Shown here: in pieces, positions 5,469 through 40,230 of the stretch | Layout of the letters: each line of letters begins with the position of its first letter | How positions within the stretch are numbered: the first letter of the stretch is position 1 | NCBI GenBank assembly: GCA_902595825.1 | Contig: CACJRP010000004.1 | Coordinates: 23,659-87,658, forward strand | From: an uncultured Bacteroidota bacterium | Lineage (GTDB): Bacteria; Bacteroidota; Bacteroidia; Flavobacteriales; Flavobacteriaceae | DNA: 64,000 nucleotides | Direction: 5' to 3' | Made by a program: the position numbers and the translations under genes | The notes under the pieces: model-generated | The model's input: the letters and a program-made list of their open reading frames with translations, nothing else | The model's database searches: none | Told to the model about the DNA's origin: nothing

Positions 5469-6506
5469 TTAACTAGTTAATAGGCTTCGACAAATTTTTT
5501 CTACTCCGTAACGAACTGGATCTGTAACTGGTAATCCTGTAATTTTTGTTGTTTCATTAATTACCATCTGTGCTTCTTTTTCATTTAATTTTGATGTATT
5601 AAGTGAAACACCTATACATTTTGAAATTGGGAATGCACCAAAAACGTGAGCGAGATTTTGATTTAATTCAATGAACTTTTTGAGGTTAGGAATCCGGATA
5701 TTTTCAGGATATCTTAAGTTTTGTTTTTCAGCCCTGTGACACAATACTAAATGAGTTGGACAAGACCCTCTTATTAAGGGTAATGTTGCAGTACTGCCAG
5801 GATGAAGTAATGAGCCTTGGCCTTCTATAATTATTAAATCTTTTTTACCATATTCTAGCACTTTCCTTTCTACCGCTCCACAAGCATGATCAACTTTAAA
5901 GGCATCGAGGGGAATTCCGTCTCCAGTTATTGTTATACCAATTTGACCGGTTGCAATAAATCCACTTTTTAATTTATTTTGTTTTGACCACGTTAAAACT
6001 TCTAAGGCAGTAGTCATTTTACCACATGCCATGTCGGTTCCAACCATCAGAAGCCTTTTGTTATTTAATTGTGCTGCTTTTCCAGTCGCAATTTCAGGAA
6101 CAAAATTCGGGACCCTAACATCCCAAATCCACTGATTTTTTTTAGAAATAAGATTACTAAAGCGATCTTGTAAAAGATCATGTAAACCATTAATTATTGA
6201 TAATCCTTTTGATAATGCCATTTTAATCACAGGATACCAATCAGAAGGAACTTTCCCTCCACTTGGGGCTATACCAAGAATCAAAACTTCAGCTTTTAAT
6301 TGAATAGCAGAATCTAAATTATTAACAATAGGGACTGGTTTTAAATTGGAATAATGGTCGCTTATATCTGTTTTCGAGTATTTTGAATCAATGACACAAA
6401 CTATTTTGTTTTCTAAATACCTCAGGACTCCCATTCCCATTTTTCCATACTCACTGTAAATATGACCTTCCATGTAAATAGCTACATTTTGTTTTTTTTT
6501 AAGCAT
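5469..6506 (-). CDS. DUF1611 family protein (DgcN-like; possible D-glutamate N-acetyltransferase)
   Basis: P-loop-like RLLMVGTDMACGKMTTALEV, TGQIGITITGDGIPLDAFKVDHACGAVE, IIEGQGSLLHPGSTATLPLIRGSCPTHLVLCH; overlaps and follows a dipeptide-epimerase gene. Confidence 0.82.
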   Translation of the reverse strand: MLKKKQNVAIYMEGHIYSEYGKMGMGVLRYLENKIVCVIDSKYSKTDISDHYSNLKPVPIVNNLDSAIQLKAEVLILGIAPSGGKVPSDWYPVIKMALSKGLSIINGLHDLLQDRFSNLISKKNQWIWDVRVPNFVPEIATGKAAQLNNKRLLMVGTDMACGKMTTALEVLTWSKQNKLKSGFIATGQIGITITGDGIPLDAFKVDHACGAVERKVLEYGKKDLIIIEGQGSLLHPGSTATLPLIRGSCPTHLVLCHRAEKQNLRYPENIRIPNLKKFIELNQNLAHVFGAFPISKCIGVSLNTSKLNEKEAQMVINETTKITGLPVTDPVRYGVEKICRSLLTS

Positions 6507-7548
6507 AGTACATTTTTTTTAGTTCTCCACCATGACCAGGATTTTCTGATACGGAAGTTATTCCGTTTATTAAATTGGTTCCGGTTGAAGGGTCCGGATT
6601 TAGATTATAATGAGAATCTAAATCTATGTGGTCGATGATACCACTTATCGAAGCAGAGGCAGCAATCGAAAGGGAAGATTCGGACATACACCCTATCATG
6701 GTTTTTAGTCCGTGAGCCCGAGCGGTATTAATAATTTTTAATCCTTCTGTGATGCCACCACACTTCATTAATTTTAGATTTATTCCATCTACATAATTAG
6801 CCCATAAAGGTATTTGCTTTGCATATCTACAGGACTCGTCAAGATAAATAGGCATTTTTCTATTTTCAAAAATATATTTTAAATCAGATTCACATCCTTC
6901 TTTTAGTGGCTGTTCTATGTAGTCTACTTCACGCTTGCTTAGCCAATTCATCATTTCAAGTGTTTGATTTACATCCCATCCTCCATTTGCATCGACTCGA
7001 ACTTTTACATTGTAGTTTTTGGAAATTTGATATACCTCATTAAACATTTCCTTATCTGCGTCTAAGCCCAAAGGGTTCCCTAACTTTACTTTTAGAGATT
7101 TAAATTTATTACCTTTTAAAATTGTTGGAATTCTTTCTCTAATTACTTCTACTGGATTTATACCAATCGTAACAGATGTTGGTTTACCAGGTTTTGGTAA
7201 ATCTAAATACTTGTATAAGGGTTTGCCCGCTTTTTTTGCCTTCAAGTCCCAAAAAGCCATATCTAAAGATGCATACGCACATGGTGCAATTTTCATTTCC
7301 ATAGCCCGATTGTAAAGTTTGTCAATGGATTCGTTTTTGATATTTGTTGAGATAAAATACTCAAGTTGCTCTTTAACAATTTCAGCTGTTTCAGCATTTT
7401 CACTTTTACCCGGTGCTGATTCACCCCAAGCAGTGTAGTTTTCATCTTTAATTTTTAAAAATACATTCACAGATTGATCTTTTATTCCTCTACTTATCTG
7501 TAAAGGATATTTTTTTTTCAAAGGAACCGTATAAATCGAAAACTCCAT
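6499..7548 (-). CDS. Dipeptide epimerase / enolase-superfamily (L-Ala-D/L-Glu epimerase or DgcA-like N-acyl-Glu racemase)
   Basis: KSLKVKLG, RVDANGGW, YIEQPL, YLDESCR, GINLKLMKCGGITEGL enolase-superfamily motifs; C-terminal IDLDSH (DxD). Confidence 0.85.
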   Translation of the reverse strand: MEFSIYTVPLKKKYPLQISRGIKDQSVNVFLKIKDENYTAWGESAPGKSENAETAEIVKEQLEYFISTNIKNESIDKLYNRAMEMKIAPCAYASLDMAFWDLKAKKAGKPLYKYLDLPKPGKPTSVTIGINPVEVIRERIPTILKGNKFKSLKVKLGNPLGLDADKEMFNEVYQISKNYNVKVRVDANGGWDVNQTLEMMNWLSKREVDYIEQPLKEGCESDLKYIFENRKMPIYLDESCRYAKQIPLWANYVDGINLKLMKCGGITEGLKIINTARAHGLKTMIGCMSESSLSIAASASISGIIDHIDLDSHYNLNPDPSTGTNLINGITSVSENPGHGGELKKMYYA

Positions 7549-7629
7549 GATAGCAATATAATTGTTTATTATATATTTATTGTTTTTAAATATTCATATT
7601 ATTACATTTAGTAATCATACTTTTCAATT

Positions 7630-8715
7630 ATGAAAATAAATCTTTTTAATTTATTTATAGCTTCATTTATTGTAATAATTTCTTGTTCCGATTCCGATGC
7701 AGAATTGAGTGAAAAGGAAAAGGAAGCGGACAATTTAGTTAATACCTTTATTGAAGAAAATAAAATTCCAGGGTTGTCAATTACAATATTAGATGGAGAC
7801 GGCCATATAGAATACTCTAAAGGTTTTGGATATGCTGATCTAGAGAAAAAAATTAATATAAACCCTAAAAATTCAATATTCAGAATAGGGAGTTTTTCTA
7901 AAACTTTAGCTGGTACTGCGTTGATGAAAATGTATGAAGAAAATAAAATTGAGATTGATAGTTCAGTAAGTTTTTATATTAAAGGACTACCGGCTGATAA
8001 AAAAAAAATTATCCTAAGACAAATTGCTGGACACCTATCAGGTATAAGACATTACGGAGATGGAGATGATATGAAGCTCAATTTAAATTATGAGAATACC
8101 TCTGAGGCATTGAACATATTTATTAATGACAGCCTGCTATTTGATCCAGGAACTAAATATAGTTATTCTACTCATGCTTGGACTTTGCTAAGTCTAGCAA
8201 TGGAAAAAGCATACGGTGAAAATTTCATTGAACTGATGAAAAACGAAATATTAAGTCCGCTTCAACTTAACAAAACCTTTGCTGAAGAAATTGATTTAGT
8301 TTTGAATGACAAGGTTACATTTTATGAAAAAAATGAATCCGGAGATATTGTTCTTTGTCCAGATGTAAACAATAGTTGGAAGTGGGCTGGAGGTGGTTAC
8401 GTATCAACTACACAGGATATGGCCGACTTTACTTGGAAAGTTCTTTACACTGATTTCCTTTTGCCTGAAACTGTTAAGGAAATGACAGAATCTCAAAAAA
8501 TTCCAAATGATAAAAAAACCAATTATGGCATTGGTTGGAGAATTAGATACGATGATGAAAATAACTCTTATTTAGGACATACGGGGGGGTCAGTTGGAGG
8601 TACTACTTTTGTGTTTTCTTCCAACGATAAATCGGTAGTTTCAATAATGGCTAATATTTCGAATGCCTCTTTTGGCACTCTGCCTTATGAATTATTTAAA
8701 ATTTTTAAAAATTAA
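7630..8715 (+). CDS. Serine hydrolase (beta-lactamase/DD-peptidase fold), predicted lipoprotein
   Basis: Lipobox-like FIVIISC; SxxK in GSFSKTLAG; YSYSTHAW; GHTGGSVGGTTFVFS. Confidence 0.88.
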   Translation: MKINLFNLFIASFIVIISCSDSDAELSEKEKEADNLVNTFIEENKIPGLSITILDGDGHIEYSKGFGYADLEKKININPKNSIFRIGSFSKTLAGTALMKMYEENKIEIDSSVSFYIKGLPADKKKIILRQIAGHLSGIRHYGDGDDMKLNLNYENTSEALNIFINDSLLFDPGTKYSYSTHAWTLLSLAMEKAYGENFIELMKNEILSPLQLNKTFAEEIDLVLNDKVTFYEKNESGDIVLCPDVNNSWKWAGGGYVSTTQDMADFTWKVLYTDFLLPETVKEMTESQKIPNDKKTNYGIGWRIRYDDENNSYLGHTGGSVGGTTFVFSSNDKSVVSIMANISNASFGTLPYELFKIFKN

Positions 8716-8719
8716 TCTC

Positions 8720-10750
8720 ATGAAAAAAATTCAAATTTTAAAAGCAATTTTATTAATATTTATATCTAACCAAATAATTTTCTCTCAAAAGAAAGATATG
8801 TCTATAATAGACTTTTTAAATATTCCAGGTATATCTAGTGTTTCTTTATCTCCAAATGGTAACAAAATTGTTTATATTTTATCTGAAAGCGATTGGAAGG
8901 AAAATAAACAAATTCCAAATTTATGGTTGACTGACTTAAATAGTGGCATATCCCAAAAAATTACATTTGAGAAAAAAGGGCTTAGCAATCCCGAGTGGTC
9001 ACCTGATTCCAAGTGGATAAGCTTTACCTCTTCAAAAGAGGGTTACATTGATGATGAGGACGATGAATTTGATTCAGGAAATAGTCAAATTTATTTACTA
9101 CCAACCAAAATTGGTTCACCAAAAAAACTTTCAAATCATAGGACTGGAGTTAGTAATATTAAGTGGTCCAGTGACTCAAAGTATCTTTATTTCATTGCAA
9201 GTGACCCAAAAACTAAAGAACAAATTTTAGCTGAAAGAGATGGCTATGACGTTTACAGTTTTGATAATAACCGTGAGCAGAAACATTTATGGAGGTTGGA
9301 TCTAAACGGAAATGAAGAAAAAATTACAGATGGAGATTTTTCAGTTTTAAACTATGATTTATCTAATGATAATAAAAAAATTCTTCTTCAAAAGGGACCT
9401 AATCCATTTCTTGAATTTAGATCTCTAAGTGAGTTATGGATTATGGATTTGGATTTATCAAGAGAAATTCAACTAACAAACAATTCAATTAGTGAATCGT
9501 CAGCAAAAATTTCTCCCAATGGAGACAAAGTGTATTTTATTTCTGCAAGTAACGGGAATTTAGAAGAGTATTACAATAGAAATCTTTTTGAAGTTTCAAC
9601 GGATGGAATAAATCAACCCAAAATAATTTCAAATGACTTTGACCACGAAATTTATTCTTTTGATTTTTCTAGAAAAAGGGGAGAGTTTTTTATTCTAGTA
9701 AACATGGGTGCAAGTACTCAGCTTTGGAAAATGGATATTTCAAAAAGAATTTTTTCACAAATAACAAATGGAAAGCATAGTCTGACTAATTGGGATTACA
9801 ACTTAAAATCGAATTTACATGTATTTGGGATTAATACAATTGAAAATCCTGGGGATTTATATTTATATGGAAAAACACAAAAAAAAGTAACATCTCACTA
9901 CGATTACTTAAAAAAAGAATTCAATTTACCAACTCAACAGGCTATTACTTGGACTGGAGAAGATGGTGTTCAAGTTGAAGGGATTTTATATTTACCACAT
10001 GATTACAAGGAATCAAAAAGATATCCTTTAGTAGTTCAAACACATGGTGGCCCAAGGTCATCAGACAAATATGGTTTTTCTAGAGGATCAACGAGGTACA
10101 ACGCAGTTCTAACAGGTAAAGATTACGTCGTCTTACAACCAAATTATCGAGGCAGCACTGGTTATGGTGACGCTTTTCTTAGGGATATGGTTGGTAGTTA
10201 TTTTAATCAATCACACCTAGATGTAATGACTGGAGTAGATCATTTAATTGATGAAGGAATTGCCGATCCAGATAAATTAATCAAAATGGGGTGGAGTGCT
10301 GGAGGCCATATGACAAATAAAATTATTACCCATACAGACAGGTTCAAAGCCGCCTCATCAGGTGCTGGCGCAGTCAATTGGATTGGCATGTATGCTCAAA
10401 GTGATGTAAGACTAAATAGAACTGCCTGGTTTGGTGGGGATCCTTGGCAAAAAAACGCTCCTATAGACGTGTTCTGGAATAATTCACCCTTAAAAGATAT
10501 CCACAAAGTAAAAACTCCAACATTAGTTCTAGTTGGTGGAAATGACAAAAGAGTCCCTCCACCACAATCAGTTGAATTATTCAGGGCTTTAAGAAGTTTA
10601 GGCGTTGAAACCAAACTATTAATTGCTCCTGGAGAACCACATGGATGGAGAAAACTAAGCCATAGACTAACCAAAATTAATTCTGAGTTAGAATGGTTCG
10701 CTAAATATGCACTAAACAAAAAATATGAGTATGAAAAATATGACCAATAA
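8720..10750 (+). CDS. S9 family peptidase (prolyl oligopeptidase/dipeptidyl peptidase-like), secreted
   Basis: ORF track begins at 8663, but signal peptide MKKIQILKAILLIFISNQIIFSQ starts at ATG 8720; WSPDSKW beta-propeller repeats; GWSAGGHM nucleophile motif; GGNDKRVP; GEPHGW. Confidence 0.9.
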   Translation: MKKIQILKAILLIFISNQIIFSQKKDMSIIDFLNIPGISSVSLSPNGNKIVYILSESDWKENKQIPNLWLTDLNSGISQKITFEKKGLSNPEWSPDSKWISFTSSKEGYIDDEDDEFDSGNSQIYLLPTKIGSPKKLSNHRTGVSNIKWSSDSKYLYFIASDPKTKEQILAERDGYDVYSFDNNREQKHLWRLDLNGNEEKITDGDFSVLNYDLSNDNKKILLQKGPNPFLEFRSLSELWIMDLDLSREIQLTNNSISESSAKISPNGDKVYFISASNGNLEEYYNRNLFEVSTDGINQPKIISNDFDHEIYSFDFSRKRGEFFILVNMGASTQLWKMDISKRIFSQITNGKHSLTNWDYNLKSNLHVFGINTIENPGDLYLYGKTQKKVTSHYDYLKKEFNLPTQQAITWTGEDGVQVEGILYLPHDYKESKRYPLVVQTHGGPRSSDKYGFSRGSTRYNAVLTGKDYVVLQPNYRGSTGYGDAFLRDMVGSYFNQSHLDVMTGVDHLIDEGIADPDKLIKMGWSAGGHMTNKIITHTDRFKAASSGAGAVNWIGMYAQSDVRLNRTAWFGGDPWQKNAPIDVFWNNSPLKDIHKVKTPTLVLVGGNDKRVPPPQSVELFRALRSLGVETKLLIAPGEPHGWRKLSHRLTKINSELEWFAKYALNKKYEYEKYDQ

Positions 10751-12281
10751 AATATTTATAACTAATTTTTTTATTTTTCTTTTAATTGCTGCAACGATTT
10801 ATTCTTGTAATGATGGACAAAAATTCAAGTTTGCTATAATTCAATTTTCACATGAAACATGTACGTTTTGTCCTGGTGGCGACACAACCATAGAAGATTG
10901 GACTAAAAGAGTACCTTTCGTGACGGGTGAGCAACTTCTAAAATTCGGTGGTTATACTGGAGGATTTGTTCATCAGGCTGGTTTATTTAAGGATGTTGAG
11001 TTAATTGGAATTAATTCTCCTGACCGAGTGTTTGGAGGGTCTTCAAGGAGTTGGAATACCAAAAAAAGTTTTGAGCATTTTATGAAAATAATTCTTGATG
11101 ATCTAAAATCAAAATTGCCTGTCGATGCAGTCCAACTTTCTTTGCACGGTGCTATGGCAACTAGAGATGTTCCAAGACCAGAGGCTGAAATTGCAAAAAG
11201 GGTTAGAAAATTAGTTGGCCCTGATGTTCCTATATCTGGCACTTTTGATTTACATGGTAATGAAGACGGCGAGTTTTTAAGATGGGCTAATGCTGCATTT
11301 GTAACAAAACGTTTTCCTCATTATGACGCACCATTGCAAGGAGAAAGATCGGCGAATTTTTTGTACAGATCTGTTAAAAATAAATTTAACTCAACAACTG
11401 CAACAAGAAAGCCTGGTATATTAACTGCAACCGTCCTTCAATGGACTGGAGCCGAACCTGCTTCTACAATCATGGAAAGGGCTAGAAGATGGGAAAATAG
11501 AAATAAAGATGTTTTTGTTAGCGTTTTTTTTGGTTTTCCATGGTCTGACGTGCCAGATATCGGTGCAACCATACATGTGGTTACCAATAATAATCAACAA
11601 CTTGCTGACTCAATTGCAGATGATATGAATGATTATTTTCTAAGAGTGAAAAAGGAATTTGCGGGCGGTTCATTTTTAAAACCCAAACAAGCTGTAAAAA
11701 AAACTAAAATGGCGTTACAAAACGATAAAGGTCCCGTTGCGTTAGGAGATTATTCTGACCGTCAAGGAGACGCAACATGGATAACAAAAGAATTAATTGA
11801 GCAAGATGTTGAAAAATTTCTAATAGCAACTTTACGAGATGAAAATGTCCTAAAGGACTTGTCTAAAAAGGGTGCCGAAAAGGGTGATAAATTTGACTAT
11901 AAAGTTGGGGGCTATACTGGAATTCAAGCTGGTGTTCCTGTAAGAATTTCTGGAGAGATACTTTTCTTTGGCTCACACTTTGGATATGATAAAATAGCTG
12001 TTGTAAAATTCGGTAAGGGAAATGCTGTAGTTATAGTTCCAACCTATGAGCAGGTTATAAGGCCATCTGAAATTAGATTTGGAGATTTAAATCCTGACGA
12101 TTTTGATGTTGTTGTAGTAAAATCTAGAGTCCATTTCCGAAGAGGTTTTGATGAAACAGGTTACTCGAAGACGGTTATGGTTGTTGACGCATTAGGGGAT
12201 TTTGTTGGTACCACTAGATTGGACGCGTTAGATTACAAATTTGGGCCAATCGATGAACTGTATCCTTTTAACAAAAATTAA
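10725..12281 (+). CDS. M81 family metallopeptidase (MlrC-like), predicted lipoprotein
   Basis: FAIIQFSHETCTFCPGG, LSLHGAMATRDVPRPEAEIAKRVRKLVGPDVPISGTFDLHGN, AFVTKRFPHYD; N-terminal MTNKIFITNFFIFLLIAATIYSC lipobox (start may be 10740). Confidence 0.87.
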   Translation: MSMKNMTNKIFITNFFIFLLIAATIYSCNDGQKFKFAIIQFSHETCTFCPGGDTTIEDWTKRVPFVTGEQLLKFGGYTGGFVHQAGLFKDVELIGINSPDRVFGGSSRSWNTKKSFEHFMKIILDDLKSKLPVDAVQLSLHGAMATRDVPRPEAEIAKRVRKLVGPDVPISGTFDLHGNEDGEFLRWANAAFVTKRFPHYDAPLQGERSANFLYRSVKNKFNSTTATRKPGILTATVLQWTGAEPASTIMERARRWENRNKDVFVSVFFGFPWSDVPDIGATIHVVTNNNQQLADSIADDMNDYFLRVKKEFAGGSFLKPKQAVKKTKMALQNDKGPVALGDYSDRQGDATWITKELIEQDVEKFLIATLRDENVLKDLSKKGAEKGDKFDYKVGGYTGIQAGVPVRISGEILFFGSHFGYDKIAVVKFGKGNAVVIVPTYEQVIRPSEIRFGDLNPDDFDVVVVKSRVHFRRGFDETGYSKTVMVVDALGDFVGTTRLDALDYKFGPIDELYPFNKN

Positions 12282-12285
12282 ACTA

Positions 12286-13359
12286 ATGAGACTAACAAGT
12301 TATTTGATAATTATTTTTTTGCTATCCATTAAGTGCGAGACGGAAAATAAATTGAATTATGGTCAGCCATGGGAAGAATATTTATCATATGAAGAGTCAG
12401 GGTTTGATGCAAATAAGCTAGACAAACTAACTGAATTTATTGAGAAAAAATCAAATACCACTGGTCTAATTGCGATCTATAAGGGGAAAAAATTTTTTGA
12501 ATACGGAGACTTGGAGCATATTAGTTACATTGCCTCAAACAGAAAAAGTATCCTCGCAATGCTAATGGGAAAGTATGTAGAAAATGGAATAATTGATTTA
12601 AACCAAACGCTCGAGGATCTTGAAATGGATGATCTTGAAGGTTTAATGGATATTGAAAAAAAAGCTACTATTGACCATTTGGCCACTGCAAGATCTGGAA
12701 TTTTTCATGATCCTTCCTATGGAGGCGACGATAGGAAAAATGTACTAGAGAGAGGTAGTGTTGAACCAGGAACTTACTATTTGTATAATAACTGGGACTT
12801 TAATGCGGTCGGATATATTTTCGAAAAGCTTGTAGGAAAAACAATTTATGAAGAACTTGAAGAGCAAATAGCTATTCCTACTGGATTTGAGAATTGGGAC
12901 TTATCAATTCAAAAAAAAGCGGGTGATAAAACAAAATCAAAGTATTTAGCTTATCCCATTAATCTTTCAACAAAGGATATGGCAAAAGTGGGGCAACTAA
13001 TGTTGAATAAGGGAAAGTGGAATGGAAATCAATTGATTTCTGAAAATTGGTTGAAGAAAATTGTTACAATTATAACTCCTAAGGACACTGTTTCCAAAAG
13101 GAGAGGTTTGTCTAAATTTAAAAGTCCAGATTTTGGTTATTCTTACATGTGGTGGACTTTTGATGATTTTAATGAAAACAATATATACGAGGGGTCTTAC
13201 TCTGCGCATGGAAGTGGTGGTCAATTTATTACCGTTATCCCAAAATTAGAATTAGTGATTGCGCATAAAACTGATTTTATCAAGAAGACAAATGGGAAAA
13301 AAACACCAAGACACATTTACTACCAAATTGTTGATTTTATAGTTAATGCAAAAATCTAG
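12286..13359 (+). CDS. Serine hydrolase (beta-lactamase fold), predicted lipoprotein
   Basis: Likely start ATG 12286 (MRLTSYLIIIFLLSIKCE); SxxK in ASNRKSILAML; YLYNNWDFNAVG; AHGSGGQFITVIP. Confidence 0.87.
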   Translation: MRLTSYLIIIFLLSIKCETENKLNYGQPWEEYLSYEESGFDANKLDKLTEFIEKKSNTTGLIAIYKGKKFFEYGDLEHISYIASNRKSILAMLMGKYVENGIIDLNQTLEDLEMDDLEGLMDIEKKATIDHLATARSGIFHDPSYGGDDRKNVLERGSVEPGTYYLYNNWDFNAVGYIFEKLVGKTIYEELEEQIAIPTGFENWDLSIQKKAGDKTKSKYLAYPINLSTKDMAKVGQLMLNKGKWNGNQLISENWLKKIVTIITPKDTVSKRRGLSKFKSPDFGYSYMWWTFDDFNENNIYEGSYSAHGSGGQFITVIPKLELVIAHKTDFIKKTNGKKTPRHIYYQIVDFIVNAKI

Positions 13360-13379
13360 AAAAAAAACTACTTTTTTTT
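13360..13379 (+). terminator. Possible AT-only hairpin A8-CTAC-T8 directly after stop codon
   Basis: aaaaaaaactactttttttt directly after the TAG of the serine hydrolase; weak, no GC stem. Confidence 0.3.
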
Positions 13380-13522
13380 AAAATTATACACTGTAAATTA
13401 TAAAATTGACAAAACTTTTTAATAAAAAAAAAATCTTTGAAATTCTACCTACTACGTATTGAGAAATTTGAAAATTTATTACTACATTCACTATATAATC
13501 AATTTAAAAATTATCGTTATTT

Positions 13523-16500
13523 ATGAAAAATATTTACTTACTATTAATTTCTTTGATGACAACCTTTTACGGGTTTTCTCAAAAGACAATCAATGGTACT
13601 GTTTCAGACGATCAAGGACCCCTACCTGGTGCAACCATAATTATTCAAGGTTCATCAACTGGTGTAACTACTGATTTCGATGGAAACTATTCCATAGAAG
13701 CCTCTGAGGGTGACGTTCTTGAGTTCTCATATATTGGGATGGAAGGTCAAACAGTTACTGTTGGAAGTCAAGACACAATTGACGTCATTATGACGTCATC
13801 TACCGAGCTTCAGGAAGTTATCGTAACAGGTTATGGAACCAGTAGCCGTGAGAAGTTTACTGGTGCTGTTGCGGTTATTAGTGCTGAAACTCTTGAAATG
13901 CAACCATCTGCCACATTCCAAAGTGCACTACAAGGAGCCGCGCCTGGTCTTCAGGTTGTTTCTAATGACGGTGCTCCTGGTGCTGGAATTTCAATTCGAG
14001 TCCGTGGTATTGGATCTATTAGTTCGAGTAATGAGCCCCTGTATGTAATCGATGGGATGCCAATTACTTCAGGATCTCTTTCAACAACCGACTTCTCTAA
14101 CGGAGGAAGAAGTTCTAATGTTTTGGGTTCAATAAATCCTAATGATATTGAAAGTTTGGTAGTTTTAAAAGATGCTGCCTCAACAGCCATTTATGGATCT
14201 AGAGGTGCAAATGGTGTAGTTCTAATTACTACAAAAAGTGGTAAAGCTGGCGACCCAAAATTTACTTTAAGAGCTAGATATGGAACTCAAGAATTTGCTT
14301 ACGATGGCATTTTAAGGGGGCTTAACTCTACACAATACAAACAACTTCATTATGAAGGTTATATAGCGCGAGGAACTTCTCCTGATGCAGCAAGAGAACT
14401 TTTTGCTAATCAGTTCCCATTAAATGATGCGGGACAAAATTATAACACAATTTGGCTAGATGAGATGACACAAACAGGAATTGTACAAGAATATGATTTT
14501 AGTTTTAGTGGTGGCTCAGAAAAAGTAACCTACTTTGGTTCTGCTAACTATTTTGATAATGATGGAATGGTAAAAAATAACAAATTTGAAAGGTTTTCCT
14601 CTCGTTTAAATATTGATGCTCAACTAACTGATAGGTTTAAAGTTAGTAACAACGTTAATATTTCAACTTTTGATCAAAGAGGTATTACTGACGGTACCAG
14701 ATGGCAGGCCCCATTTTACTTAGCTTATTTAATGGCACCAACTGTTCCAGTTTATGATGAGTTTGGAAGATTCTATGGTGATCATAAAAACTTCTTTATG
14801 GGGGGGAATAACCCAGTTGGTCACCTCTATGATGACAAAAGAGAGCTGTCTCAAATGAGATTAACGGATGTTTTTGAAGTTTCATATGAAATCATGGATG
14901 GTTTAACTATAAAGTCTGACTGGAGTTTTGATCTTTTAAAAGTGGATGAATATTTATTTCAAAATGGTAGATATGGAGATGGTCGAAGAATTGGTGGTTA
15001 TGCCAATGAAGGAGGAATATCACAGACAAATTGGTTGGGTACTCAAAGTTTACAATTTACACCCCAAAATACAGGAAATCATAATATGAATTTCTTCGCT
15101 GCTTACGAAGCCCAAAAAGTTATGACTAGAACTATAGAATTAAGAGGTGAAGGGTTCTCGCATCCAGATTTAAAATTTGCTGCGAGTGCTGCTAATCCAA
15201 CTCAGGCTTACAGTGCAAGGTCAGATTATGCTTTCCAATCCTATTTCGCAAGAGCAAATTATGATTACAACAGCGAATATTTTCTTTCAATGTCTTTCCG
15301 TAGAGATGGTTCATCAAGATTTGGTCCAGACCAAAGATGGGGAACATTCGGATCAATCGGTGTTGGTTGGAATATGACAAGATTAATTGAAAGTGTTGGT
15401 TTTGTTGACTTCTTAAAATTAAGAGGAAGTTTTGGAACTACAGGTAATGCTGGTATTGGAAACTTTGATTGGGCAGGTTTATGGGGCTTTACCAGAGATT
15501 ATGACGGTAACCCTGGAGCTGCTCCTTCTCAAGTCTCTAATAATTTGCTTACTTGGGAATCGCAAGAGAATTTTAACATTGGTATTGATGCTACTTTCCT
15601 TGACAATAAAATCACATTAAATGCTGAATACTTTGAAAGAGTTTCTTCAGATCTTCTATTAGATCGACCATTATCATTGACAACTGGATTTACATCAGTA
15701 GCTCAAAATATTGGTGATATGAAAAACTCAGGTATAGAGATTGATTTAGGAATTGACATTATTCAAACTTCTGAAGCATTTCTTGGTGTTAATTTCAATA
15801 CCACTACACTTAAAAATGAAATTACCTACCTTCCTGAGCCTATAGTCGTTTCAACTAAGAAGAGAGAACAGGGTAGAGATTTCCAAGAATATTTCCTTTT
15901 CCCTTGGGCTGGAGTAGATCCAGCCAACGGTGACCCTCTTTGGTATCTCGTTAACTCGGATGGGACAATTAATTATAATTCAACCACAAACCGTGTTGGT
16001 GAAACCGAAAGGGTTTATATGGAAGGAAAATCTGCGACACCAGATTTTTATGGTGGATTTAACTTGAATGCTTCATATAAAGAATTTTCTCTTGGTATGA
16101 CCTTCAATTATTCTTTCGGTAACTATCTGTATTTTAATCCTGGATGGGTTATCCATGGTGATGGAAGGTTTACACCAAGAAGTACAACTACCTATGCTTT
16201 CAACAATAGGTGGACAACTCCAGGTCAAGCGGCAGAATTTCCAAAACACAGATGGGGAGGTAATCAGTCTTCAAATCAAAGACCTAACAGTAGATACCTT
16301 TATGAAGGGGATTATGTAAGATTAAAATCATTGAATTTGTCTTACAATGTTCCAACAGATTTATTTGGTAATATTGGTATAAATCAATTTAAAGTTTATT
16401 TAGATATGAATAATATTTGGACTTGGACCAAAGCTGATAATCTTCCGTTTGATCCAGATCAAGCGATTGATGGAATCTATAACACAATGACACCACTTTC

Positions 16501-16537
16501 CAGAACAACAAGTTTGGGAGTAACCATTGGATTTTAA
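13523..16537 (+). CDS. SusC/RagA family TonB-linked outer membrane protein
   Basis: Signal peptide; carboxypeptidase-like GTVSDDQGPLPGATIIIQGSSTGVTTDFDGNYSI; EVIVTGYGT; plug SIRVRGIGSISSSNEPLYVIDGMPI; NDIESLVVLKDAASTAIYGSRGANGVVLITTK. Confidence 0.97.
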   Translation: MKNIYLLLISLMTTFYGFSQKTINGTVSDDQGPLPGATIIIQGSSTGVTTDFDGNYSIEASEGDVLEFSYIGMEGQTVTVGSQDTIDVIMTSSTELQEVIVTGYGTSSREKFTGAVAVISAETLEMQPSATFQSALQGAAPGLQVVSNDGAPGAGISIRVRGIGSISSSNEPLYVIDGMPITSGSLSTTDFSNGGRSSNVLGSINPNDIESLVVLKDAASTAIYGSRGANGVVLITTKSGKAGDPKFTLRARYGTQEFAYDGILRGLNSTQYKQLHYEGYIARGTSPDAARELFANQFPLNDAGQNYNTIWLDEMTQTGIVQEYDFSFSGGSEKVTYFGSANYFDNDGMVKNNKFERFSSRLNIDAQLTDRFKVSNNVNISTFDQRGITDGTRWQAPFYLAYLMAPTVPVYDEFGRFYGDHKNFFMGGNNPVGHLYDDKRELSQMRLTDVFEVSYEIMDGLTIKSDWSFDLLKVDEYLFQNGRYGDGRRIGGYANEGGISQTNWLGTQSLQFTPQNTGNHNMNFFAAYEAQKVMTRTIELRGEGFSHPDLKFAASAANPTQAYSARSDYAFQSYFARANYDYNSEYFLSMSFRRDGSSRFGPDQRWGTFGSIGVGWNMTRLIESVGFVDFLKLRGSFGTTGNAGIGNFDWAGLWGFTRDYDGNPGAAPSQVSNNLLTWESQENFNIGIDATFLDNKITLNAEYFERVSSDLLLDRPLSLTTGFTSVAQNIGDMKNSGIEIDLGIDIIQTSEAFLGVNFNTTTLKNEITYLPEPIVVSTKKREQGRDFQEYFLFPWAGVDPANGDPLWYLVNSDGTINYNSTTNRVGETERVYMEGKSATPDFYGGFNLNASYKEFSLGMTFNYSFGNYLYFNPGWVIHGDGRFTPRSTTTYAFNNRWTTPGQAAEFPKHRWGGNQSSNQRPNSRYLYEGDYVRLKSLNLSYNVPTDLFGNIGINQFKVYLDMNNIWTWTKADNLPFDPDQAIDGIYNTMTPLSRTTSLGVTIGF

Positions 16538-16546
16538 TTTTTAAAA

Positions 16547-17995
16547 ATGAATAAAATGAAAAATATTTTACAACGTAGTTTTTTGTTAGTGCTGTCAATA
16601 TCATTGATTTCATGTGCAGACGATTTTCTTGATCTTCAGCCACAACAGAATATATCAAATGAATCTTTCTTACAGACATTTGATGATTTTAACACTGCTG
16701 TTTTAGGTCTTCATGACCAATTACAAGGAGGTGGAAATGCTGCACTTTACGGCAGATATACTCTTTTAGTTCCTGATGTTATGGGTGATGATGTAAAACA
16801 GAATGCAAGTGCAAACAGAGCAAAAGAATGGGCAGAGTACAATGGAAGTGAAACAGATTTTATCCCAGAGGATATTTGGCGAGAGTTCTATGAAGCAATA
16901 AATATTGCAAATTCTGTCATAAATTCAGAATTTGAACCCTCTGCTTCATTAACGGCAGATTTTAATACTCTTAAAGGTCAAGCATTCGGGATTAGAGGAC
17001 TTGCTTATTTTATGCTGTGTAATTTTTACGCTCAACCTTATTCTTTCTCCGCTGGAGCGGGACATCCCGGTGTTCCTATAGTTCTGGAATTTGATTTTCA
17101 AAACAAGCCTGCAAGGAGTACTGTAGCAGAGGTTTATACACAGGTTATTTCTGATTTAAATCAGGCAGTGACTTTGATTACGACTTCTCAGAAAAATGCT
17201 GGTTACTTTTCAAAAGCAGCTGCTGAAGCACTTTTATCAAGGGTTTATTTATATATGGAGGATTGGTCTAATGCTGAAGCAAAGGCAACAAGTGTAATCA
17301 ACAATTATGGTTACTCACTTGTCAGCAGAGATTTATACCCTACTCAATTTATCGATGGTTTGTCCTCGGAAGCAATCTTTGAGATGATCTATAATACAAC
17401 TGACAATACTGGCTCAAACCATATTGGAGGTATGTATAAAGTGACTGGATATGGTGACTACCTTCCCTCAAATGATTGGTACGCTCTAATGGAGGATGGT
17501 GACATCAGAAGAACTATGATTACTTATGATAGTAACTTAATTGGAGATTTTGCTAAAGCACCTCTCGGTCCGGCTAGGGTCGACAAATGGCCTAGTGAAG
17601 GTCCACTAAATGGTACAGATAATGTTTCTGTTATAAGACTTTCAGAGGTTTATTTAAATAGAGCTGAGGCTAGAGCAAACCTTGGAAACGAAGCTGGCGC
17701 TCAAGCTGATGTTGATATAATTAGACAGAGGGCAAATCCAGGAGTCGCAAATGTTACTGCTACTGGTGCTGCACTTAAAACAGAAGTTTATAATGAAAGG
17801 AGAGCGGAATTAGCTTTTGAAGGTCACAGAATATTTGACATTAATAGAAGAAAACAAGGCTTAGCTAGGATTTTAGATTGTACTTCAGTACCTGAAGCGT
17901 GTAATTTAAGCTACCCTAACAATCTTTTTATTCTTCCAATTCCTGACGGGGAGGTTAATTCCAATGAAGAAATTGCCCAAAACCCAGGATATTAA
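16547..17995 (+). CDS. SusD/RagB family nutrient-binding outer membrane lipoprotein
   Basis: SISLISCADDFLDLQPQQNISNESF lipobox; RGLAYFMLCNFYAQPY; RLSEVYLNRAEARANLG; YNERRAELAFEGHRIFDINRR. Confidence 0.96.
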   Translation: MNKMKNILQRSFLLVLSISLISCADDFLDLQPQQNISNESFLQTFDDFNTAVLGLHDQLQGGGNAALYGRYTLLVPDVMGDDVKQNASANRAKEWAEYNGSETDFIPEDIWREFYEAINIANSVINSEFEPSASLTADFNTLKGQAFGIRGLAYFMLCNFYAQPYSFSAGAGHPGVPIVLEFDFQNKPARSTVAEVYTQVISDLNQAVTLITTSQKNAGYFSKAAAEALLSRVYLYMEDWSNAEAKATSVINNYGYSLVSRDLYPTQFIDGLSSEAIFEMIYNTTDNTGSNHIGGMYKVTGYGDYLPSNDWYALMEDGDIRRTMITYDSNLIGDFAKAPLGPARVDKWPSEGPLNGTDNVSVIRLSEVYLNRAEARANLGNEAGAQADVDIIRQRANPGVANVTATGAALKTEVYNERRAELAFEGHRIFDINRRKQGLARILDCTSVPEACNLSYPNNLFILPIPDGEVNSNEEIAQNPGY

Positions 17996-18015
17996 TAATT
18001 AAATAGATATTTTTT

Positions 18016-18047
18016 AAAAAGGAGATCTTTATGATCTCCTTTTTTTT
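18016..18047 (+). terminator. Intrinsic terminator after susD-like gene
   Basis: aaaaaGGAGATCtttatGATCTCCtttttttt: 7-bp stem, 5-nt loop, T-tract. Confidence 0.88.
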
Positions 18048-18069
18048 CCTTAAAAATTAAAATTTTAAA

Positions 18070-20514
18070 ATGAAAAAAAAACTTATTACTTCGATACTAA
18101 CTTTAACATCTTTGCTATTATCATCACAAGAAAAAACTTCTTATCAAATTCCGAAGAAAGAATTATTGGAATTAATTGAAGTTGAACTTGCTCCATCAGT
18201 TATTAAAGACAGTAAAAACGAAAATTTTATTCTTTTATACAGAGACGCCTACAAAAGTATTTCAGAACTATCCCAAGAAGAACTCCGAATAGCGGGGTTG
18301 AGAGTTAACCCGTCTAAACATATTGGGAGTAGAACAACTTACTATAAAAATATTAAAATTTTAAAATTATCAAAAAGTAAGGAACCGTCACAATTACAGG
18401 GCTTACCCTCAAATCCAAAGCTTTCAAACTTTAGTATTTCTCCAGATGAGTCTAAAATCGCATTAACAAATACCACAAATAAAGGAGTGGAATTATGGAT
18501 AGCAGATCTAAAGACTCTTATGACTAAGAGGATATACGGTCCGAACATAAATGCAACACTTGGGAATCCTATTACATGGCTTAAAAACAATAGTGAACTT
18601 TTAATAAAAACTATTCCAAACAATAGAAAAGCTTTGATCGATAGAAATAGCATTGTCCCAACGGGACCTACAATAACTGAAAATGAAGGGCAAAAGGCTC
18701 AAAACAGAACATATCAGGATTTAATCAAAAATCCAGATGATGCATTTAATTTCACCCAGCTAAGTTTATCAGATATTATTAAAATCAATCTTGAGGGAAG
18801 AGAAAAAAGATTTTTGCAATCTAAAATGTATCGTTCAGTTTCAGTTTCTCCAAACGGTGACTTGGTTATGGTTAGTTTTATAAAAAAGCCTTTCTCATAT
18901 TTAGTTCCCTACTATAGATTTCCAACTGAGTACAGAGTTTATAATGTAAATGGTGATGTAGTTAAAGTTATTCAAGACTCTCCACTGTCAGAGGAACTTC
19001 CAAAAGGAAGAATGTCCACCACAACAGAACCTAGAAATATTGGATGGAGAAATGACCTGGGGGCATCATTATACTTCTTTAAGGCCTTAGATAAAGGAGA
19101 TCCAGAAAACAAAGTTGAATATAGAGATGCTCTTTACCAGTGGGATTATCCATTTAAAGGTTACCCCAAATTACTACTTAAGGTAAATAATCGTTTATCA
19201 AATGTTATTTGGGGGAACAAAAATATAGCTATAGTTAACGACATTTGGTGGAACAATAGAAATGTAAAAACTTATCTGTTTAATCCCTCCAATACATCTA
19301 AGAAGGCTTTGATTATTGAAGATCGAAATTATCAAGATATTTATTCTGATCCTGGTAACTTTTTAATGAAAAATGGTAAATATAATACCAAAGTACTGGA
19401 TATAAAAAATAATAATGCTTTCCTTATAGGTTCTGGATTCACTGAGAAGGGCCAGTTCCCCTTTATTGACAAATTAAACTTAGAAAAAATTTCTAAGGAA
19501 AGACAATACCAATCCTCTTTCACAAAAAAATATGAAAATATAATCGATTATGATCCAGAAAAAAAAGTGGCTTTCGTAAGAATCGAGTCACCAAAAGAAT
19601 ATCCAAATTATTACTTTAGGGATGTTAGCTTAAACAAACTAAAACGAATCACATCTTTTAAAAATCCCTTCAAAGCACTTGAAAAAGTTGAAAAAGAGAT
19701 CATAACTTATAAAAGAGACGACGGCCTTGATTTAAGCGGAGTTTTGTATTTGCCAGAGGATGTATCTGTAGGAGATAAAAAACCAATGATTTTGTGGGCA
19801 TATCCAAGAGAATATAAAGATAAGTCTACTGCCTCTCAGAAGAGAAGTAATCCAAATACCTTTACTTACCCATCTATGAGAAATCCAGTTTATTGGGCGA
19901 CACAAGGATATGTTGTTTTAGACAGAGCTGAGTTTCCAATTGTAGGAGAAGGAGATGAAGAGCCAAATGATTCATTTAGAAAGCAACTAGTTGCAAATGG
20001 AAAAGCTGCTATAGATGCCGTCGATAAATTGGGTTTTATTGATAGAGAAAGAGTTGGAGTTGGTGGACATAGTTATGGAGCATTCATGGTCGCTAACTTA
20101 TTAAGTCATAGTAATCTATTTGCTGCGGGAATTGCTAGAAGTGGAGCATATAACAGAACCTTAACTCCTTTTGGATTCCAAAGCGAAGAAAGGAGCTATT
20201 GGGAAGCACCTAATGTATATTATTCAATGTCACCTTTCATGCACGCTAATAAAATGAAAACACCGCTCTTGTTAGTTCATGGCGAGGAAGATAACAACTC
20301 AGGAACCTATCCACTACAAAGCGTGAGATATTTTAATGCACTCAAAGGACTCGGTGCAACTACAAGACTCGTTATGTTTCCAAAAGAAAGTCACGGTTAC
20401 AGAGCTAAAGAATCCATATTGCATCTTATTTGGGAACAAGATCGTTGGCTAGACATGCATGTAAAAAACAAAAAGAAAAAATTAGTTAAAGAAGAAAATA
20501 AACCAAAGGGATAA
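18070..20514 (+). CDS. S9 family peptidase (prolyl oligopeptidase type, glutamyl-endopeptidase-like architecture), secreted
   Basis: Signal MKKKLITSILTLTSLLLSSQ; VGVGGHSYGAFMVANLL; LLLVHGEEDNNSGTYPLQS; PKESHGYRAKES. Confidence 0.9.
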   Translation: MKKKLITSILTLTSLLLSSQEKTSYQIPKKELLELIEVELAPSVIKDSKNENFILLYRDAYKSISELSQEELRIAGLRVNPSKHIGSRTTYYKNIKILKLSKSKEPSQLQGLPSNPKLSNFSISPDESKIALTNTTNKGVELWIADLKTLMTKRIYGPNINATLGNPITWLKNNSELLIKTIPNNRKALIDRNSIVPTGPTITENEGQKAQNRTYQDLIKNPDDAFNFTQLSLSDIIKINLEGREKRFLQSKMYRSVSVSPNGDLVMVSFIKKPFSYLVPYYRFPTEYRVYNVNGDVVKVIQDSPLSEELPKGRMSTTTEPRNIGWRNDLGASLYFFKALDKGDPENKVEYRDALYQWDYPFKGYPKLLLKVNNRLSNVIWGNKNIAIVNDIWWNNRNVKTYLFNPSNTSKKALIIEDRNYQDIYSDPGNFLMKNGKYNTKVLDIKNNNAFLIGSGFTEKGQFPFIDKLNLEKISKERQYQSSFTKKYENIIDYDPEKKVAFVRIESPKEYPNYYFRDVSLNKLKRITSFKNPFKALEKVEKEIITYKRDDGLDLSGVLYLPEDVSVGDKKPMILWAYPREYKDKSTASQKRSNPNTFTYPSMRNPVYWATQGYVVLDRAEFPIVGEGDEEPNDSFRKQLVANGKAAIDAVDKLGFIDRERVGVGGHSYGAFMVANLLSHSNLFAAGIARSGAYNRTLTPFGFQSEERSYWEAPNVYYSMSPFMHANKMKTPLLLVHGEEDNNSGTYPLQSVRYFNALKGLGATTRLVMFPKESHGYRAKESILHLIWEQDRWLDMHVKNKKKKLVKEENKPKG

Positions 20515-25409: not shown

Positions 25410-26660
25410 CTAGATTGAATTGTTTCCGGCTTTTTTCGCGTATGCTTGAACCTCTCTGAAGACACGTAATAAGTTTCCACCCCAAATTTTCTCAATTTGG
25501 GCTTCATTGTAACCTCTTCTAACCAGCTCCACTGTAATATTCTTTATTTCACTGACATCAAAAACCCCATCGATACCACCACCACCGTCAAAATCACATC
25601 CAATACCAACATGATCGATTCCAGCAATTTTAACTATATGATCGATATGATCAACCACATGACCTACATTTGCAGATGGGTCAGGGTATCGTTTGTTAAT
25701 TAGATTTATTTTTTCTCTGTAATCATCTCGCTCATCTGTATTCATTTCTGAAACTTCCTTCATATTTGTCCTAAATATTGCTAATACTGAGTCACGCATA
25801 ACATTAGGCTTAGCTTCACGTAAATAATTACTTAACATGGTTAATTGAACTACTCCCCTGTTTTTTGCAATTAATTTTAACATCTCGTCTGTAAAATTAC
25901 GTTTGTGATTAGTTACCGCCCTTGCATTTGAATGACTTGCAATTATCGGTGCTTTGGACATTTTTATCGCATCATAAAAAACACTATCATTTCCATGTGA
26001 AACGTCGACCATTATTCCTAACCTATTCATTTCACCAATAACCTTTGCTCCCAAATCGCTGATACCATTATGTTCCGTTCCGTGAGGATCAGTCGCTGAA
26101 TCAGCGAGATCATTATTTGAAGAATGAACCAAAGTGATATAACGGACACCCTTATTGTAATAAAGTTCTACATTTGAAATGTCGCTACCTATTGGATATC
26201 CATTCTCAATACCTATGTAAATAGCGTGTTTTCCTTCCTTTTCTAATGTGTAAGCATCTTCAGGATTTAGCGCCAATCCTACTTTGTCAGAATTTCTATC
26301 AATAGATGTCGTTATCGAATCTATCATTTGTAAGCACAGCGATTTAGCTCTCCCATTACCATCATCATCTCTTATGTCTTGGGCAACGAAAGCAGCAAAA
26401 AAGATAGCATCTAAACCACCTTCTTTCATTCTGGGATAATCTACTTTAGATCCTGTTTTTTTTGGATCATGTCTAACCGACATATCAAAACCTGGTTCGA
26501 TCATTCTAAGTGGTGTGTCTGCGTGGGTATCTAGAGTAAGAACCTTATCGTGAATTGCGTATGCTCTTTTAATTAAATCCTCTTTCGACTGATTTTTATC
26601 ATTCTTGCATCCAACTGCGAATAAAAATGATGCTGTTATAATTAGAAGTTTGTTTTTCAA
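25410..26660 (-). CDS. Membrane dipeptidase (M19, renal dipeptidase family), lipoprotein
   Basis: FLFAVGC lipobox; LTLDTHADTPLRM; IGIENGYPIG; GIMVDVSHGND; APIIASHSNARAV; DHVGIGCDFDGGGG; IWGGNLLRV. Confidence 0.93.
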   Translation of the reverse strand: MKNKLLIITASFLFAVGCKNDKNQSKEDLIKRAYAIHDKVLTLDTHADTPLRMIEPGFDMSVRHDPKKTGSKVDYPRMKEGGLDAIFFAAFVAQDIRDDDGNGRAKSLCLQMIDSITTSIDRNSDKVGLALNPEDAYTLEKEGKHAIYIGIENGYPIGSDISNVELYYNKGVRYITLVHSSNNDLADSATDPHGTEHNGISDLGAKVIGEMNRLGIMVDVSHGNDSVFYDAIKMSKAPIIASHSNARAVTNHKRNFTDEMLKLIAKNRGVVQLTMLSNYLREAKPNVMRDSVLAIFRTNMKEVSEMNTDERDDYREKINLINKRYPDPSANVGHVVDHIDHIVKIAGIDHVGIGCDFDGGGGIDGVFDVSEIKNITVELVRRGYNEAQIEKIWGGNLLRVFREVQAYAKKAGNNSI

Positions 26661-35731: not shown

Positions 35732-36403
35732 CTAATTAGCTAACTCAAAAGTCGAATTAAAAGATGATGAAAGATTATTTCCTTTATCTCTAGTAGTAAT
35801 TTTCCATGAATAAATATTTCCTATTTGGAGTTCTACTTCAAAATTTTGACTTTCAATTTTTTCATATTTAATTTCCTCTCCATTTGAAGTATTCTCGATT
35901 ATTAAATCGTAATTATCAATATCGCCGTCTAAATCATAACCTTCCCATTGAAATGCAACTATAACACCTGAATTTATAATTGACTCATTTAAAGGAGAAA
36001 TTAGTTTTGCAGGAAATGGGATGTGAGTCAACTGAGAGGGACCTTCCAAATAAAAGTTTCTAGTTTCACTTAAAGCAATATTTTCAGTTGATTCAGATTT
36101 GCTTACCACATACCAGCTATATGGTGCACCTCTCTCTAATGTCACCCTGGCAAATGTCTGGTTAATTGTTCTTGAGTTTTTTAAATTAGATAATTGATTT
36201 TCAATAATTAAATCATAATTATCCGTGTGCTTTGCTTCTGTCCAACTAAATTCTACATCTCCAAAATTTGCATTTGAATTTGAAAATAAACAAGTATTAT
36301 TATTTTCGGGATTAATTAATGTTACCTGCTCTGGTTCAGGGATGGACTCTTTGCAAGAAAAAATTAAAATAGAAGCAAAAAGGATTTTACATTTTTTTAT
36401 CAT
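35732..36403 (-). CDS. Hypothetical lipoprotein with two FnIII-like repeats
   Basis: Lipobox SILIFSC; DNYDLIIEN occurs twice, with W-containing beta-sandwich-like repeats; 4-bp overlap with the upstream metallopeptidase gene. Confidence 0.75.
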   Translation of the reverse strand: MIKKCKILFASILIFSCKESIPEPEQVTLINPENNNTCLFSNSNANFGDVEFSWTEAKHTDNYDLIIENQLSNLKNSRTINQTFARVTLERGAPYSWYVVSKSESTENIALSETRNFYLEGPSQLTHIPFPAKLISPLNESIINSGVIVAFQWEGYDLDGDIDNYDLIIENTSNGEEIKYEKIESQNFEVELQIGNIYSWKITTRDKGNNLSSSFNSTFELAN

Positions 36404-39400: not shown

Positions 39401-40230
39401 TCTCCTACTAATGATGATAGAGTTGAATGAATTTCACGTGCAAAATTTGAGTTGAATGGATCACTAGATTTATCTGCATACATAAGAGATGCATCAGATA
39501 CAATGATTAGTCGTATTCCTAAATCGACTTCCATTATTTCATTTAGCCTATTAATTGTTGAAACTACTGCTGCAAAAGCATCTTCAGAATTAGTTCCGTT
39601 TAGATCATTGTTATCTCCCCAAAATTCGGTGTATTCCCCAGAAGCTGCAATTGCAATTTTAAATGATTTGGCCTCTCTATTTATGACTTTTTTTGATTTT
39701 CTTTGATTTATTTTTTTTATCGAAGAACTAATTTTTATAGAATTCGTCTTGCAAAATAATTTTTCTTCGATATAATTATACTTGTTAGATCTGTAAAAAA
39801 TGTGCTCTGTATTACTATCCTTTAGTGGTTGTAAAAAAACAAAACCTCTTGGTGTTCTAAGCGTTCCTGAAATACCTTGTGGGGAGGAAGTAATTCTTAA
39901 AATGACTTTTTTTCTTGTGTCGCTGTAGCCTCTAAAAGTTCTTATGTTAGGGTATTTCATCTGAATCTTTTTGGACAAAGTTTTTGTTTCTTTCAAGGAA
40001 AAAAATTCAAGTTCCCCTTTTTCATTTGGAAAATCTATTTTTAAAATTTCATTATCCTTTATGCTTAGAATTTTTTTGGTAAAACTTTTATTTTTTAAAG
40101 ATATATATTTAATATCCTTTGCTATATCAATTTTATTTTCATGTTTTGATGAACTTTTAATTTTCCAGTAATCTTGACAAAAGGAAAATTGAAATGTTAA
40201 TGCAAAAAAAACTAAAATTAACTTTCTCAA
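36400..40230 (-). CDS. Secreted reprolysin-like (M12B-type metzincin) metallopeptidase with P-domain, thrombospondin type-3 repeat and T9SS type A sorting domain
   Basis: Signal peptide; VLHEVGHQFGATHTY (HExxHxxGxxH); P-domain-like IVDLDLELSIDHSYVQDLTIILVSPEGDEVIL; DTDGDLIPNDEDNCPFVTNPDQADFNNNGVGDLCD; C-terminal YPNPSTDVLNI...GNYILKIHAKSGFETIKFIKR. Confidence 0.94.
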   Translation of the reverse strand: MRKLILVFFALTFQFSFCQDYWKIKSSSKHENKIDIAKDIKYISLKNKSFTKKILSIKDNEILKIDFPNEKGELEFFSLKETKTLSKKIQMKYPNIRTFRGYSDTRKKVILRITSSPQGISGTLRTPRGFVFLQPLKDSNTEHIFYRSNKYNYIEEKLFCKTNSIKISSSIKKINQRKSKKVINREAKSFKIAIAASGEYTEFWGDNNDLNGTNSEDAFAAVVSTINRLNEIMEVDLGIRLIIVSDASLMYADKSSDPFNSNFAREIHSTLSSLVGEENYDLGHLFHRGQASGDAGSVGNVCINDSKDRAYSAHPFTATNGSSGIFLNDYFDLDFVLHEVGHQFGATHTYAYDPEPFGVSSEPGSGSTIMSYAGFVSGENMQRHSDPYFHYHSIQDVESYVDNVSCHSNVNSSNQKPTVSAGEDFYIPKGTAYYLEANGFDSDNDNLTYCWEQLDSGKVDASNFGPELLTGSVNRSIPPSENKIRHIPNISEVLNGNLVSLNPTLFSSWETVSNVERTLTWGVTVRDRSESNPNGMGQISQDAKKIFVTASAGPFRIISNDSNDIVWKSGSNQKIIWDVANTDRVPINTERISIFLSIDGGENFSIPLAENIPNIGEAYIIVPGNISTERARIKISADNNIYFAVNNSSFKIEERDFAFPFIEPEKISCGDEELTFEFNLKAYNNFNGDVEFELLEFPNQVSYNISPTSLNSSGTLGSITINRNELPYGTYNMLLSGTYDNIVEEESFIASFYPESISSPNLVSPEDNLTDANVNQNFEWSSVNYADYYRFELSTVEDFSSLVKDEKTIENKISITNLDPEETYYWRTSALNTCGNSPPSNSRKFSTTVISCNNYTSDNIPVNLNDATSALDGITEIKINVLDNLKIVDLDLELSIDHSYVQDLTIILVSPEGDEVILTQNLGGTGVNYTNTTFDSESQIPIQNGTPPFTGTYKPIGNLKDLYNLNSGGVWILRIIDQYPVDTGTLKFLALKFCLSGEIKSNTDGDLIPNDEDNCPFVTNPDQADFNNNGVGDLCDLNDQRNITISKKNATCSEKQNGEIQISAIAIFDYEVEISGSNAYYQSFTMFNQELLIQNLSPGTYQICVTEKISGFQTCFTAEIKEPLPLNVTSKINKSDKTISLKFEGGKKYIVNINGKIFTTYENEKDYNLKNGLNVIKVVTTEECQGMHQEYIYIGKKSQIYPNPSTDVLNILIGGDSLYSEIEIIDIFGNIIYSNKIKLDPMSRYFKLDISKLTVGNYILKIHAKSGFETIKFIKR

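Follow-up and report, generated by a model that had tools for sequence, protein, structure and literature searches.

Several described systems resemble parts of the locus analysed here. In the DgcN/DgcA pathway, N-acetyl-D-Glu is formed and then racemised, and Bacteroidia are among the reported dgcN carriers (PMC12363236); the chemistry used below was taken from that source, NCBIfam names and general knowledge. The locus likewise carries adjacent DUF1611 and enolase-superfamily (EPIM) genes with the common catalytic motifs, but its pair scores far below the DgcN/DgcA cut-offs, EPIM is 27% identical to a true DgcA, no LysR regulator is adjacent and the pair is linked to SusCD and peptidases. 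The L-Ala-D/L-Glu epimerases of Bacteroides and E. coli share the fold, KxK, metal ligands and DxD with EPIM, which differs in falling under their cut-offs, in having DUF1611 as partner and in lacking a recognised murein endopeptidase nearby. RagAB of Porphyromonas gingivalis also employs the SusCD architecture for peptides instead of glycans, although the locus SusD is only weakly similar to RagB (29 bits) and the locus adds a D-Glu-type pair as well as dedicated hydrolases of the S12, M81 and S9D types. The chloroplast glutamyl endopeptidase has a full-length homologue in S9b, with the S9D motif and W-x-Y-P, which is in contrast exported, devoid of the plant C-terminal prosequence and placed in a SusCD locus. 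Finally, the Mlr cluster similarly combines an S12-fold hydrolase with an M81 enzyme sharing its active-centre residues, whereas the M81 of the locus is exported and remote in sequence and neither MlrA nor MlrD is found in the cluster. The locus is a peptide-type SusCD locus in which M81, S12 and S9D enzymes and a D-Glu-type pair are brought together.

Gene content and transcription units of the locus

The window, that is, the whole stretch of 64,000 nucleotides that was analysed, belongs to the bin of an uncultured ocean flavobacterium (1.34 Mb, 67% complete) whose nearest named relatives are environmental assemblies including TMED96 and AG-453-G16. The sequence-only reading had described exported hydrolases on both sides of a SusC/SusD pair that has no glycoside hydrolase with it, and a DUF1611 and enolase-superfamily pair divergent from the plus-strand genes. 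Pfam searches and coordinates bore out both descriptions, with all nine genes of the locus in place (Table 1). None of the nine was a glycoside hydrolase according to Pfam, and the CAZymes beside SusCD that characterise a PUL are absent among them. The adjacent SusC and SusD genes matched the SusC/RagA model and the SusD domains, respectively.

Table 1. Features of the locus at window positions 5469-20514 (scores in bits)
Feature	Position	Strand	Evidence
DUF1611 protein, DgcN-like	5469..6506	-	P-loop GTDMACGKMTT; Pfam 224 + 79 bits
EPIM, enolase-superfamily dipeptide epimerase / N-acyl-D-Glu racemase type	6499..7548	-	MR_MLE_C 103 bits
81-bp spacer between divergent units	7549..7629		kept within genus
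BLA1, exported S12-fold serine hydrolase	7630..8715	+	PF00144 155 bits; lipobox; SxxK at 88
S9a, exported S9 peptidase, acylpeptide hydrolase / Dpp5-like	8720..10750	+	Pfam 162 bits; GWSAGG
M81, exported MlrC-like metallopeptidase	10725..12281	+	Pfam 191 + 54 bits; lipobox
BLA2, exported serine hydrolase	12286..13359	+	PF00144 62 bits; lipobox; SxxK at 84
SusC, TonB-dependent outer-membrane transporter	13523..16537	+	TIGR04056 787 bits, cut-off 368
SusD lipoprotein	16547..17995	+	PF07980 and PF14322, 96 and 91 bits; tree
Intrinsic terminator after SusD	18016..18044	+	kept in four genomes
S9b, exported S9D peptidase, glutamyl-endopeptidase homologue	18070..20514	+	Pfam S9 88 bits; 555 bits to 10eq

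DUF1611 and EPIM overlap by 8 bp on the minus strand, and the plus strand starts 81 bp away with BLA1, S9a, M81 and BLA2, which are nearly gapless and are followed by SusC/SusD and S9b. M81 and S9a share 26 bp; the probable starts are 8720 for S9a and about 12286 for BLA2. Chance frames were excluded because the frames are long, tightly packed and kept in other species of the genus. Export was called by eye, from a lipobox Cys in BLA1, M81, BLA2 and SusD and from Sec-type N-termini in S9a and S9b. The terminator between SusD and S9b is strong, and its loop varies among the four genomes keeping it, while SusC has its own upstream region of 163 bp. Since the SusD terminator is conserved and the 163-bp gap precedes SusC, the locus probably comprises several transcription units; a single operon of all plus-strand genes was ruled out by this terminator. 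Matches to Bacteroidetes-type promoters were rarer than expected by chance, and the locus had none.

Elsewhere in the window, HPPK (folK) and a deoxynucleoside kinase domain are joined in one frame (968-2050), HupE-like and DUF6702 genes accompany an exported M19 dipeptidase some 5 kb past S9b (25410-26660, minus strand), and a reprolysin-like metallopeptidase of 1276 aa has a P-domain together with a sorting tail for type IX secretion (36400-40230, minus strand).

The DUF1611-EPIM pair and the exported hydrolases

The pair had been proposed to represent DgcN/DgcA, with an L-Ala-D/L-Glu epimerase as the other possible identity of EPIM. The first proposal stood in that the two genes are adjacent on one strand, as in DgcN/DgcA, with intact motifs, but both equivalog cut-offs were missed: DUF1611 reached 223 bits with the NCBIfam DgcN model (cut-off 480; 507 for true DgcN) and EPIM 181 bits with the DgcA model (cut-off 400; 414 for true DgcA). 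Similarly, EPIM kept the catalytic motifs of L-Ala-D/L-Glu epimerases but scored 132 and 96 bits with their models, under the cut-offs of 500 and 343. The best solved relatives were 2obn (278 bits) and 7xrj (165 bits) for DUF1611 and the Bacteroides enzyme 3iji (148 bits) for EPIM. KVK, VDAN, EQP, LDES, KLMK and DLD are kept in EPIM, and its alignment with YcjG and DgcA revealed the catalytic KxK, the D-E-D metal ligands, the second Lys and DxD. EPIM is 26-27% identical to E. coli YcjG and Vibrio DgcA, which are 48% identical to each other. Assigning EPIM to either enzyme by motifs gave no discrimination, as those of YcjG and DgcA are identical. Because the motifs are common to both and both models were missed, the sequence is compatible with either N-acetyl-D-Glu or a dipeptide as the EPIM substrate. 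Separately, distant DUF1611 proteins (L044, L045, L112) adjoin an alanine/ornithine-racemase-like PLP protein, not an enolase-superfamily racemase; such a neighbour is annotated so on a Vibrio plasmid.

Regarding the exported hydrolases, the closest solved relatives of BLA1 were LACTB (153 bits) and the R61 DD-peptidase (93 bits), and also included the alkaline D-peptidase, while that of BLA2 was 4gb7 (54 bits), a 6-aminohexanoate-dimer hydrolase. S9a matched 8wt1 with 180 bits. M81 matched the MlrC structure 7ylq with 85 bits and presents the motifs HETCTF, LHGA, DLHGN and PHYD; the Zn and active-centre residues of MlrC (Glu56, His150, Asp184, His186 and His208) are kept, LHGA, DLH and PHYD having been aligned to 7ylq and the Glu of HETCTF placed by motif only. 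S9b aligned over nearly its full length (residues 23-797) with the chloroplast glutamyl endopeptidase (S9D) 10eq. Its GGHSYGAFM at 665 is followed by Val, so that GGHSYGAFMV differs from the S9D motif GGHSYGAFMT in the last residue. In glutamyl endopeptidase, the Glu pocket has been proposed to be formed by a hinge loop (PMC12871690), whose W-x-Y-P is present in S9b as WAYP at 576. The identification of S9b as an S9D glutamyl-endopeptidase homologue goes beyond the sequence-only reading.

Conservation of the block, its modules and the SusD clade

The co-occurrence of dgcN/dgcA, M81 and SusCD across Flavobacteriia, by which the proposal was to be judged, held within the genus but, apart from an M81-BLA1-EPIM-DUF1611 core, not outside it. 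The genomes compared were incomplete bins. A DUF1611 orthologue (50-100% identity) was found in 11 out of 151 genomes of the family sample and in 6 out of 7 of the genus, and a contig search with the single DUF1611 protein gave six close loci, a number that an alignment query would extend. Six genomes of the genus, that of the window among them, keep the block in synteny as far as their contigs reach. Outside the genus, 12 neighbourhoods were examined (L032, L035-L043, L154 and L155): EPIM adjoined DUF1611 in all 12, SusCD was found within about 10 kb of the pair in none, and M81 and BLA1 of the locus type lay beside the pair only in the more distant L032, where M81-BLA1 is divergent from EPIM-DUF1611 as in the window and the other flanks differ. 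One other genus (L041) has an S9b orthologue close to the pair. M81-BLA1 and the pair occupy separate contigs in G096. AGCS/SSS symporters and M20 genes near the pair in other genera were discarded as partners, because synteny that related genera have in common would account for them just as well. Within the genus, BLA2 is 63-69% identical among several genomes and its neighbours 83-98%; G542 (90%) agrees with the window in BLA2 as well as in the BLA2-SusC spacer, while G541 differs in the two. This looks like an allelic replacement of the segment at 12286-13522, comprising BLA2 and the spacer.

The exported M81 subfamily (46-95% identity) is rare, being present in 3 out of 151 family genomes and in four further genomes of a 396-genome phylum sample. 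A PF00144 hydrolase accompanied it in 6/6 lineages (the window genus, L032, L064, L080, L081/L082 and L083) and none of four distant M81s (Fisher p 0.005), an association that extends across families. M81-BLA of L081 and L082 has SusCD and an S9 peptidase as further neighbours; as their SusDs fall outside the window SusD clade, this constitutes a separate pairing. An N-formylglutamate-amidohydrolase-like protein (L081) and an S51-M20 fusion (L082) are also found near M81. In G096 (L064:4926-18000), M81-BLA1 adjoins genes reading as histidine-utilisation, leading to glutamate.

In a tree of 58 SusDs, the locus SusD fell in a nine-member clade (100/100) covering several families. Within this core clade, an M20 peptidase and a BLA1-like gene occur in L102 and L104, a PF00144 gene in L100 and, directly beside SusCD, an M19 dipeptidase gene in L066; the other members had no recognisable partner among their neighbours. 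The sister group (98/88 jointly with the core clade) holds L067-L069, three genera with SusC-SusD-dipeptide epimerase-S12-DUF819 clusters, a combination of SusD and dipeptide epimerase for which our literature search returned no paper. DUF819 may be the inner-membrane partner of such loci. At L067:11196-13793, a beta-lactamase-fold hydrolase is fused to the DUF819 membrane domain in one protein of 865 aa, the two being separate genes in L068 and L069. Also, the closest SusD relative has, at a distance of about 1.4 kb, a CAAX-protease (Rce1-like) membrane protein of the MlrA superfamily (L065:3326-4180, minus strand). Neighbour tallies rest on the first 25 Pfam families listed, so that glycoside hydrolase absence around clade members is not exhaustive; they were preferred to a custom beta-lactamase profile trained partly on the loci on which it was tested. 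Among these families, PF00144 accounted for 6 of 67 neighbouring proteins of SusD relatives and for 0 of 68 neighbours of SusDs drawn at random from these genomes, the latter 68 including no MR_MLE protein either. Per locus, this was 6/17 versus 0/20 (p 0.005) and, collapsed to lineages, about 2/12 versus 0/20 (p 0.13, not significant). The serine hydrolases, dipeptide epimerase and M19 and M20 peptidases adjoining the SusD relatives support the earlier suggestion of peptide rather than glycan use.

Competing readings of the locus

A D-Glu link of the locus is plausible from the gene content, which suggests feeding on glutamate-rich or D-glutamate-containing peptide debris. The explanation that we prefer, while giving it somewhat less than an even chance, is peptide import by SusCD, trimming by exported enzymes and cytosolic D-Glu conversion by DUF1611 and EPIM. 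SusC/SusD would import oligopeptides across the outer membrane. Either on the cell surface or in the periplasm, the exported S9D, the second S9, M81 and the two S12-fold hydrolases would shorten peptides rich in Glu, among them some that contain D-Glu or isoGlu. A transporter whose gene lies elsewhere would then carry D-Glu, or a small derivative of it, into the cytosol, where DUF1611 and EPIM would turn it into the L-form. The likeliest route is that of DgcN/DgcA from N-acetyl-D-Glu to N-acetyl-L-Glu, which could then flow into an arginine operon elsewhere in the genome. We infer the D-Glu specificity of the exported enzymes, the order of the steps and that the pair serves the locus. This D-Glu peptide route is favoured by the five exported hydrolases without a CAZyme, the relationship of BLA1 to DD-peptidase and alkaline D-peptidase, the S9D hinge-loop residues of S9b, the synteny in six genomes of the genus and the L032 arrangement, the constant M81-PF00144 association (with SusCD and S9 in L081/L082) and the epimerase-containing clusters of the sister SusD clade. 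In addition, the genome encodes elsewhere a PTR2 transporter (L153) and, with genes identified by eye, an arginine operon that has an M20 deacetylase-type gene and works through N-acetylated intermediates (L152). Against it count the pair standing without SusCD in all outside neighbourhoods and without M81/BLA1 of the locus type in 11 of the 12, the separate contigs of G096, the missed DgcN/DgcA cut-offs, the lineage-level loss of significance for PF00144 and the terminator and divergent orientation, which give no evidence of co-transcription. S9D enzymes, moreover, prefer L-Glu. The original one-pathway proposal thus survived in peptide use, gene content and genus-level conservation, but not in the association of the pair with SusCD in other genera.

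That L-Glu preference of the S9b family would fit the general scavenging of acidic peptides, in which SusCD and the exported peptidases act on ordinary L-Glu-rich fragments and DUF1611 and EPIM form an independent D-Glu module next door. This is a serious possibility, though short of a probable one: most genera keep the pair in different surroundings, SusCD is bounded by a terminator and an upstream region of its own, and L081 and L082 are examples of M81-BLA and SusCD-S9 loci that lack the pair. However, M81-BLA1 persists beside EPIM-DUF1611 in L032 without SusCD or S9, a same-superfamily epimerase is built into the SusCD clusters of the sister SusD clade, and S12-fold and M81 enzymes are, as general knowledge, unusual tools for plain L-peptides. 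It is quite unlikely that the locus serves murein stem-peptide use, with EPIM as L-Ala-D/L-Glu epimerase on the peptidoglycan dipeptide and DUF1611 in a side role; EPIM has every catalytic motif of YcjG, including DxD, and 3iji as closest solved relative, but it missed the epimerase models, its constant partner is DUF1611, and no NlpC/P60- or MpaA-type gamma-D-Glu-diaminopimelate endopeptidase was recognised on reading through the ORF lists of the window. Mlr-like breakdown of non-ribosomal cyanobacterial peptides is highly improbable and Mlr membership was rejected on score and localisation: M81 keeps the MlrC active centre and adjoins S12-fold hydrolases, as MlrC does MlrB, but it reached 84 bits with the MlrC model (cut-off 999) and looks exported where MlrC is cytosolic, no MlrA-type protease was recognised at the locus and members of the M81 subfamily are scattered over Bacteroidota in different surroundings.

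Returning to the D-Glu peptide route, it could extend, as a somewhat doubtful generalisation, to a Bacteroidota class of SusCD loci for D-Glu-containing peptides from cell-wall debris, in which SusCD, S12-fold hydrolases, exported M81 and either an enolase-superfamily epimerase or a DgcN/DgcA-like pair serve as interchangeable modules. Two such assemblies would then have arisen independently, one in the window and the other in the SusC-SusD-epimerase-S12-DUF819 clusters. D-Glu from peptidoglycan is a large, slowly used share of marine organic nitrogen, and the searchable literature yielded no description of how D-Glu peptides pass the Bacteroidota outer membrane. If true, the D-Glu peptide route would extend SusCD substrates to D-amino-acid peptides and provide marker genes with which to trace how uncultured ocean flavobacteria turn over cell-wall peptides.
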